A stretch of DNA of 64,000 nt from Methanosarcinales archaeon (GTDB lineage: Archaea > Halobacteriota > Methanosarcinia > Methanosarcinales > Methanoperedenaceae). A program made the position numbers and the translations under genes. Below the pieces are notes generated by a model that was not told the origin of the DNA, ran no database searches, and saw nothing but the letters and a program-made list of their open reading frames with translations. This document shows positions 52,103-55,728 of the stretch, in pieces (position 1 is the first letter of the stretch; each line of letters opens with the position of its first letter). The stretch spans positions 1 through 64,000 of the forward strand of contig CAJPFJ010000023.1 of assembly GCA_905339155.1 (NCBI GenBank). The letters run 5' to 3'.

Positions 52103-53323
52103 ATGAAGAAGGGTGGATTTAAGAATAAATTATTAATTGAATTGATGATAACTTTTGTAATTATTGTAAATATTTCTACTGTTGGAGCATCTAACTATGA
52201 TACAGGTTCTTATCCCGGGAATAGTTTTATTGATCCGTCAGTTCAAATAAATGTGAGTGATTTCTCTATTGGTTCTGAGAGCTATATCGGTCCATTCACT
52301 TCGTTCACCGGAGAGTATGCCCATATAGGCAGTTACAGCGATTTCCAGGATGGTGTCAGCAATTCCGGAACGATAAACATAAAAGATGACGCTGTTGTCG
52401 CCCATGGCGCTCATCTGGAAGGGGATATCGAGATCGGGAGTCATGCTTTTATCGGATTTAACTCATATATAAAGGATGCAAAAATTGGTGATGAGGCCTA
52501 TATCGGAATTGGAAGTAAAATTATAGGTATTGACATCCCCCCCGGAAAATCTGTTCCCCAGGCAGCTATTATCGATAGTGCAGACGATATCCAAAAGCTT
52601 GAAGAAGTTACAAAAGAGCAGGAAGAATTCGTTCAGGAAGTAATAGGCGTCAATAGAGTTCTTGCGATAGGGTACACCAGGTTATTCGATAATAGTGGAG
52701 AATCGGCCTTTGGTAAAGTCGGCCCTAATGGCGACGGGGATATACTATTAGATGGAAAGGACATCCTTTCCAGAAGCGGAAGTAATGAACCCGTTATTGG
52801 AGCAGGATCTGTTATTGAGTCAGCCCGAATAATCGGGAAAGTTTTCCTGGGTGAGAATAGTAAAGTCGAGAGTGGAACATCTATCAGGGCAGATGAAGGG
52901 ATTCCCATAACAATTGGAAAGAATGCGATGATAGGCATGAACAATACATTCCATTCCTTGAATGATCAAGAGATCATTATTGGAAATGATCTGAATCTCG
53001 GAAGCGATTCAGTATTACATGGACAGCTCGTTCTGGGTGATAATGTCCGCATAGGGAACAACGCGGTAGTCTTTAAGTCCACGATAGGAAATAACGTGGA
53101 TGTAGGTGACAATGCAATTGTTGTGGGTGTGAAAGTCCCGGATGGAACTGTGATACCTCCAGGATTAGTTGTTGCAACTAAAAAAGATGTGAGGATGTTG
53201 AATCCGAATGATGTTGCAGCAGGCACCAAATGGGCATCAATAATAAATCTATTCTCTGTAGCTATGATCCCTATAGTTCTTGGACTTGTCGTATCAGTGA
53301 TCTTAAGAAAAAAAGAGCATTAA
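52103..53323 (+). CDS. Exported double gamma-carbonic-anhydrase-like protein, membrane anchored
   Basis: 406 residues: signal peptide (1-29), two left-handed beta-helix domains (about 38-155 and 228-360) and a C-terminal helix (383-401) with a basic tail. Both domains follow Methanosarcina thermophila Cam. In domain 2, R262 and E265 (SIRADEG), H284 and H306 match Cam R59, E62, H81 and H122, but the H117 position is S301. Domain 1 keeps H101 (AHGAH) at the H117 position and lacks the others. Since each Cam site uses H117 from a neighbouring subunit, one composite metal site is possible. GAGG lies before the ATG. Activity is not proven. Confidence 0.8.
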   Translation: MKKGGFKNKLLIELMITFVIIVNISTVGASNYDTGSYPGNSFIDPSVQINVSDFSIGSESYIGPFTSFTGEYAHIGSYSDFQDGVSNSGTINIKDDAVVAHGAHLEGDIEIGSHAFIGFNSYIKDAKIGDEAYIGIGSKIIGIDIPPGKSVPQAAIIDSADDIQKLEEVTKEQEEFVQEVIGVNRVLAIGYTRLFDNSGESAFGKVGPNGDGDILLDGKDILSRSGSNEPVIGAGSVIESARIIGKVFLGENSKVESGTSIRADEGIPITIGKNAMIGMNNTFHSLNDQEIIIGNDLNLGSDSVLHGQLVLGDNVRIGNNAVVFKSTIGNNVDVGDNAIVVGVKVPDGTVIPPGLVVATKKDVRMLNPNDVAAGTKWASIINLFSVAMIPIVLGLVVSVILRKKEH

Positions 53324-54570: not shown

Positions 54571-55728
54571 ATGATGAGACTTATCTTTATCTTCTTATTT
54601 TTGATATTAGGAGCAACTATAGCGGCAGCAGAGTCTGTGCAGCCTGCGCAGCCTTCACAGTCTATAATTACAGTTAATATTAACGAGAGTGGAGATGCAG
54701 TATGGACCATGGAAAAGTTTTTTCCTCTTGCACAATCAGATTTTAGCCAATGGGAAAGTGCCATAAAGACGGGCCAGAACATGTCCAATTATCGAAATAT
54801 TCCGGATTATGAGATTATTATAAAATCATTTCAGGATTCGGCAATCAATTTCTCAAACCGCACGATGGAAGTTGAAAATTTTAATATTACATACGATACC
54901 AGGAAAACACTTTCAGATGGGCTCGGGATAATAAGATATACTTTCATATGGAAAAATTTTTCTTACAATGATTCAGAAAAAATTTATATAGGAGATGCCT
55001 TCCCCGGCGGAGTGCTGCTTCTTTCGCCTGATAACCAGCTAATAATCAGAATACCTGAAGGATATAATGTAACAAATGCGACACCTGTTTATGATAAAAA
55101 GAATGGGAACCTTTTGATATATGATGGAACTCTTTATAGCAATTTCAGCAATGGGGAACCCTTTATTGTATTATCTCCTTTAAATATAACGAACGTAACA
55201 AGTACCGGGAATGAAAATGAATCATGGCTGGCAAAATGGCCAATCCTGGAGATAGTCATAATTTTCCTCTCTATTATAGCTGTGGTGGCTTTTATTAATT
55301 TATGGAAGAAAAGGCGTTCAGGAATGGTATCCACAACAGAAATGGTATCGCAAATGCCAAAAGAGATGCTTCATGAAATTTCTGAAATCCCGGGAGTATG
55401 GACAAAAATAGTACAATCTGTCCAGGATGAATTTGGAAATGAATCTATTGAAGAATTAGAGAAGGCTGCAAGAGAACAAAGACTAAAAAACATGGGGCTT
55501 GATCCCAGTATTCCCCTTTCCGAACTGGCAAAAGAAGATCTGGAGGATGAAGAGATGGTAAAACAATTCCTTCTCAGGTCAGGTGGGCAGGCGTATCAAA
55601 CAGATATTGTTGACCACAGCGGACTATCAAAATCCAAGATAAGCATGGTTCTCTCCAAGATGAAAGATGATGGAACGATAATAAAAATAAGAAAGGGTAA
55701 GGAGAACCTGATAAGGCTGGTTCAATAG
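54571..55728 (+). CDS. Membrane-bound one-component regulator (extracytoplasmic sensor, winged helix)
   Basis: A signal helix (1-20) leads an external domain of about 200 residues rich in N-x-S/T sequons (NISFS-like repeats such as NRTMEVENFN), then one membrane helix (LEIVIIFLSIIAVVAFINLW), a cytoplasmic linker, and a MarR-like winged helix at the end (TDIVDHSGLSKSKISMVLSK). The plan resembles archaeal DUF7345/DUF7343-type proteins. It probably senses something outside and regulates transcription directly. The signal is unknown. Confidence 0.75.
   Translation: MMRLIFIFLFLILGATIAAAESVQPAQPSQSIITVNINESGDAVWTMEKFFPLAQSDFSQWESAIKTGQNMSNYRNIPDYEIIIKSFQDSAINFSNRTMEVENFNITYDTRKTLSDGLGIIRYTFIWKNFSYNDSEKIYIGDAFPGGVLLLSPDNQLIIRIPEGYNVTNATPVYDKKNGNLLIYDGTLYSNFSNGEPFIVLSPLNITNVTSTGNENESWLAKWPILEIVIIFLSIIAVVAFINLWKKRRSGMVSTTEMVSQMPKEMLHEISEIPGVWTKIVQSVQDEFGNESIEELEKAAREQRLKNMGLDPSIPLSELAKEDLEDEEMVKQFLLRSGGQAYQTDIVDHSGLSKSKISMVLSKMKDDGTIIKIRKGKENLIRLVQ

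Follow-up and report, generated by a model that had tools for sequence, protein, structure and literature searches.

The window, a stretch of 64,000 nucleotides, is contig 23 of a genome of Ca. Methanoperedens (3.34 Mb, 97% complete). It contains an intact open reading frame encoding two fused domains, D1 and D2, that are related to gamma-class carbonic anhydrases (gamma-CAs), and the features of this gene are listed in Table 1. Homology to Cam, the gamma-CA of Methanosarcina thermophila (PDB 1THJ, 1QRG), extends over the left-handed beta-helix. Relatives in the PDB were Cam (phmmer E 7e-19, on D2), CcmM and CamH-type enzymes, and the NCBIfam CcmM and Cam carb_anhyd profiles matched at 1e-34 to 1e-36, scores that lie below the equivalog cut-offs of these profiles. 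As judged from the signal or anchor sequence and the positive-inside rule, both domains would be extracytoplasmic and tethered to the membrane.

Table 1. Features of the split double gamma-CA gene in the window (numbering of the 406-residue product; faces A and B as defined in the text)
Feature	Residues	Positions	Strand	Evidence
Split-site double gamma-carbonic anhydrase, 406 aa		52103..53323	+	Intact ORF; profiles; phmmer; orthologs
N-terminal signal peptide/anchor (MKK..K, then hydrophobic stretch)	1-30	52103..52192	+	Sequence; kept in orthologs
D1, left-handed beta-helix repeats; face B only	~40-165	52220..52597	+	Hexapep profile; face scores
D1 Cam Q75, D76 equivalents	Q82-D83	52346..52351	+	Alignment; identical in 6/6 D1
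D1 Cam H117 metal ligand equivalent	H101	52403..52405	+	Alignment; identical in 6/6 D1
D1 C-terminal helix; N184 (Cam N202) and Y191 invariant	~171-203	52613..52711	+	Alignment; D2 without counterpart
Linker and D2 N-terminal strand; I214, I221, L222, G226 invariant	204-229	52712..52789	+	Sequence
D2, left-handed beta-helix; face A only, no C-terminal helix	~230-362	52790..53188	+	phmmer to Cam (229-364); face scores
D2 Cam R59, D61, E62 equivalents	R262, D264, E265	52886..52897	+	Invariant 7/7
D2 Cam H81 metal ligand equivalent	H284	52952..52954	+	Invariant 7/7
D2 Cam H117 position, ligand lost	S301	53003..53005	+	Serine 7/7
D2 Cam H122 metal ligand equivalent	H306	53018..53020	+	Invariant 7/7
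C-terminal transmembrane helix, then RKKEH	380-401	53240..53305	+	Sequence; kept in orthologs

In trimeric Cam, each zinc or iron is held by H81 and H122 of one subunit and by H117 of the next. A structure-based table allows two interface faces to be defined in Cam numbering, namely face A (R59, D61, H81, H122 and the N-terminus) and face B (Q75, D76, H117, the N202 position and the C-terminal helix) (PMC8000050). We placed E62 on face A because its counterpart, V89, sits on the subunit that provides the H81 and H122 ligands (PMC9873573). R59 of face A forms an inter-subunit salt bridge with D76 of face B, and the face assignment draws on the R45(A)-D61(B) pair of the published structure (PMC8000050); Q75, along with N73 and N202, belongs to a hydrogen-bond network, and E62 and E84 take part in proton transfer (PMC4519908). 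In gamma-CA trimers the N-terminus of each chain is found near the C-terminus of the adjacent one, and the contacts of Tyr4 with the neighbour's Leu164 and of Arg45 with the neighbour's Asp61 bring the termini and the salt bridge together at one interface; enzymes of this class have been described to function solely as trimers whose sites are formed between subunits (PMC8000050). In the plant CA2/CAL2 site, H107 and H135 come from one subunit and H130 from the other, and Q101 (the counterpart of Q75) and Y207 (the tyrosine of the helix) are both found on the H130, or H117-type, subunit (PMC9873573).

D1 and D2 were aligned with Cam, the orthologs and single-domain gamma-CAs. D2 retained R262, D264, E265, H284 and H306 at the positions of Cam R59, D61, E62, H81 and H122, and carried G278, M279 and S301 at those of Q75, D76 and H117, with the C-terminal helix absent. 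D1 retained Q82, D83, H101 and N184 (Cam Q75, D76, H117 and N202) together with the whole C-terminal helix, and the positions of R59, D61, E62, H81 and H122 were occupied by T69, E71, Y72, a gap (the S86-S88 region) and E106, respectively. H105 of D1 is variable (H or D) and is no ligand candidate. The three histidines equivalent to H81, H117 and H122 are therefore not found within one domain, since H101 lies in D1 and both H284 and H306 lie in D2. At the level of sequence, neither ligands nor second-shell residues are missing when face B of D1 is combined with face A of D2, and the two sets complement each other across an interface; read in this way, each domain is one half of an interface, and the D1 and D2 halves are exactly complementary, a complete two-face split. 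Both partners of the R59-D76 inter-subunit salt bridge are kept, as R262 in D2 and D83 in D1. The acidic proton-shuttle loop of Cam (E84/E89) was present in neither domain of the alignment, which places the protein outside the Cam subclass, and this loop is missing from many archaeal gamma-CAs too. The first-pass annotation had correctly matched H101 to H117 and H284/H306 to H81/H122, had noted the R59 and E62 equivalents (R262 and E265) and a serine (S301) at the H117 position of D2, and had described D1 accurately as keeping the H117 equivalent and lacking the other Cam ligands. The alignment adds to this the retention of Q82, D83, N184 and the C-terminal helix in D1, and the loss of the helix and of the residues at the Q75 and D76 positions in D2.

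Mean log-odds against 27 single-domain gamma-CAs were then calculated for the two faces (15 positions on face A, 16 on face B), with gaps set to -2. Scores for D1 were -1.23 on face A and +1.43 on face B, and those for D2 were +2.43 and -1.31. The single-domain enzymes, which are somewhat favoured by being part of the profile, all scored at least +1.9 on both faces. When positions were divided at random, the observed contrast was reached in 1 of 100,000 divisions, which is an indication rather than an exact probability as the positions are not fully independent. Removal of the nine catalytic, ligand or salt-bridge positions raised this number to 327 of 100,000, to be read as an indication for the same reason. 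The partition between D1 and D2 is not due to chance.

Five further genomes of the genus contain an ortholog, and a genome from another genus of the family has one as a contig-end fragment (85-55% identity); with the window's own included, the sample comprises 7 D2 and 6 D1 sequences. The partition was identical in all of these sequences, down to 55% identity. Conservation of H101 (6/6 D1) and H306 (7/7 D2), on which the first-pass annotation had made its proposal depend, was thus observed. The retained faces hardly vary among the orthologs, with 12 of 15 positions invariant on face A of D2 (entropy 0.14) and 11 of 16 on face B of D1 (entropy 0.25). The lost faces evolve faster than the remainder of their domains: a single position out of 13 was invariant on face B of D2, where the entropy was 1.18 compared to 0.57 at non-interface positions, and face A of D1 had 6 invariant positions out of 14 and an entropy of 0.63, compared to 0.39. 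This variation is faster than buried interfaces should show, and therefore face A of D1 and face B of D2 are probably open to solvent.

A scan for the same fusion through 185 genomes from the order and 392 from the phylum gave no case beyond Methanoperedenaceae at the thresholds applied, and a search of wider genome contigs yielded three Methanoperedens-related loci and weak single-domain matches. The split double gamma-CA is so far confined to Methanoperedenaceae. An aminotransferase gene upstream and a methyltransferase gene downstream are common to the window genome and four relatives, and this shared neighbourhood indicates that the gene is old and has been kept. In a phylogeny that also included single domains, D1 formed one clade and D2 another, each on a long branch, a topology compatible with the two being sisters, as expected from internal duplication, as well as with the fusion of two genes. 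A literature search within a limited library returned nothing relevant on gamma-CA in Methanoperedens or on fused gamma-CAs. At 54571-55728 (+), the window also encodes a membrane protein with DUF7345 and DUF7343 domains, possibly a membrane-bound regulator, whose place downstream of the CA gene is conserved in four relatives.

The best explanation for these observations, to which we assign a probability of about 0.6, is that the two fused domains form a membrane-tethered extracytoplasmic gamma-CA with a divided active site and one composite metal site, probably as an open pair. D2 would act as the subunit that supplies the H81, H122, R59 and E62 equivalents from face A, and D1 as the neighbour that supplies the equivalents of H117, Q75, D76 and N202, along with the C-terminal helix, from face B. 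Face A of D2 would dock onto face B of D1, most likely within one chain, since the C-terminus of D1, in the role of face B, runs into the N-terminus of D2, in the role of face A, at the same interface. One metal, either Zn or Fe, would be bound by H284, H306 and H101, a salt bridge between R262 and D83 would close the interface, and CO2 and bicarbonate would be interconverted outside the membrane. In sequence terms, the composite D1-D2 site proposed in the first-pass annotation is well supported, the evidence being residue conservation, the two-face analysis and the order of fusion; the role that this annotation envisaged, interconversion of CO2 and bicarbonate on the outside of the cell membrane, is plausible. 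AlphaFold2 models generated from 21-row and 10-row alignments had pLDDT values of 63 and 57 and a pTM of about 0.5, and neither model was used. A Foldseek search with the first model retrieved unrelated beta-solenoids only, and no hexapeptide fold.

The composite site could instead be formed between chains, with D1 of one chain on D2 of another, in a dimer or higher assembly that may include three-domain rings as in complex I. The residue partition and the face scores would fit such an arrangement equally well, and gamma-CAs are naturally oligomeric (PMC4519908, PMC8000050). We nevertheless consider it unlikely, given that the order of fusion makes the C-terminus of D1 adjoin the N-terminus of D2 at the retained interface, and that the linker of ~26 residues is plausibly enough for contact within a chain. 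A closed ring of three domains is further disfavoured because it needs face A of D1 or face B of D2 as an interface, and both are relaxed, evolving faster than the rest. With these two faces no longer serving as interfaces, the two domains probably form an open unit and not a closed trimer.

A non-catalytic relative, that is, a structural or ligand-binding protein in which the remaining residues simply hold the D1-D2 interface, appears less probable again. Some gamma-CAs are inactive although they have three histidines, which counts against a catalytic reading, and the Cam acidic loop is missing here. Plant CA-like subunits and some CamH proteins are also without measurable activity (PMC7447434, PMC8000050). 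However, the three metal ligands and the equivalents of E62 and N202 are each invariant in one domain and replaced, by serine or other residues, in the other, and the three histidines are not obviously needed for a purely structural role. Stacked homotrimers, (D1)3 above (D2)3, with incomplete sites and a split that reflects coincidental decay, would follow the rule among gamma-CAs but are highly improbable, as each interface would join one retained and one lost face, both lost faces are relaxed, and the decay is exactly complementary.

The proposed enzyme resembles Cam in fold family, in the metal ligands and in R59, D61, E62, Q75, D76 and N202, and Cam is likewise an exported archaeal protein, export being predicted here from the sequence. 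Cam differs in forming a homotrimer of single-domain subunits, with an acidic loop and three complete sites that are identical; the split double gamma-CA lacks the loop and has one divided set of residues over two fused domains. Its closest precedent would be the one-site CA1/CA2/CAL2 heterotrimer of plant mitochondrial complex I, of which it looks like a fused version. In the plant heterotrimer, three histidines remain, and zinc is bound, only at the CA1-CA2 interface (PMC9873573, PMC7447434), so that a single composite Zn site, putative in the archaeal protein, is located at one interface and ligands are lost elsewhere. The plant subunits are separate polypeptides that form a closed trimer on the matrix side, whereas the archaeal protein is one fused chain that is probably outside the membrane, and the two are likely to be of independent origin.

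In one genome (G016), the split double gamma-CA gene is present 18 nt downstream of fpoO and on the same strand. The fpo operon of this genome (L082:162-6736 and L119:10664-14871), which encodes an archaeal homolog of complex I and in which ten genes were identified by profile or order, ends in fpoL-M-N-O, fpoO being its last gene. In a close relative (G012) fpoO is followed by a ccmE-like gene without a CA gene between them, and the CA gene is not beside fpoO in the window genome or in four other same-genus orthologs. A general association of the gene with the fpo operon was rejected, as the linkage was seen in one species only. Cam has been proposed to supply protons near transporters, a proposal that is not established (PMC7399021). 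We tentatively suggest, while regarding it as rather doubtful, that the chain escaped trimerisation to become an open beta-helix pair with one composite site outside the membrane, and that at least one species co-transcribes it with Fpo, on whose proton-release side it may sit, paralleling plant complex I.

An inventory of CAs in the window genome covered the beta and gamma classes, and a beta-class gene was not found. A Cam-like single-domain gene on contig 24 (L010:1356-1720) is broken: its reading frame changes and it lacks the central part of the active site. The other hexapeptide proteins examined were, by appearance, sugar nucleotidyltransferases or acetyltransferases. The split double gamma-CA is the only intact gamma-CA found in this genome, and would be the candidate CA in a methane-oxidising organism, which produces CO2 and translocates protons across its membrane. 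If the proposed reading is true, it would show how the halves of a site at an interface are divided between duplicated domains until each chain is left with a single asymmetric site. The protein would also offer a small one-site gamma-CA for mechanistic work, probably with one CO2/bicarbonate centre per chain compared to three in an ordinary trimeric gamma-CA.

Fused domains in a single chain are known from the beta-carbonic anhydrase of Porphyridium, which has two repeats per chain, a fused pair imitating an oligomer; it differs from the split protein in being of the beta class and in having one site per repeat, not one shared. Tandem Cam proteins from related archaea, a double (L055) and a triple (L078), resemble the split protein in having fused gamma-CA domains in one exported chain, but carry a full ligand set in each complete domain. 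The L055 open reading frame (L055:3-1313, minus strand, genome G042) is at least double and apparently cut by the contig end, and a partly double Cam open reading frame, also apparently cut by a contig end, begins at position 1279 of L117 (G076); the complete domains of both have full ligands. The triple one (L078:2036-4222, minus strand), from a relative of another family (G050), encodes 729 aa that comprise a twin-arginine-like signal, three Cam domains, all of them complete, and an anchor at the C-terminus, and may represent a single-chain gamma-CA trimer.
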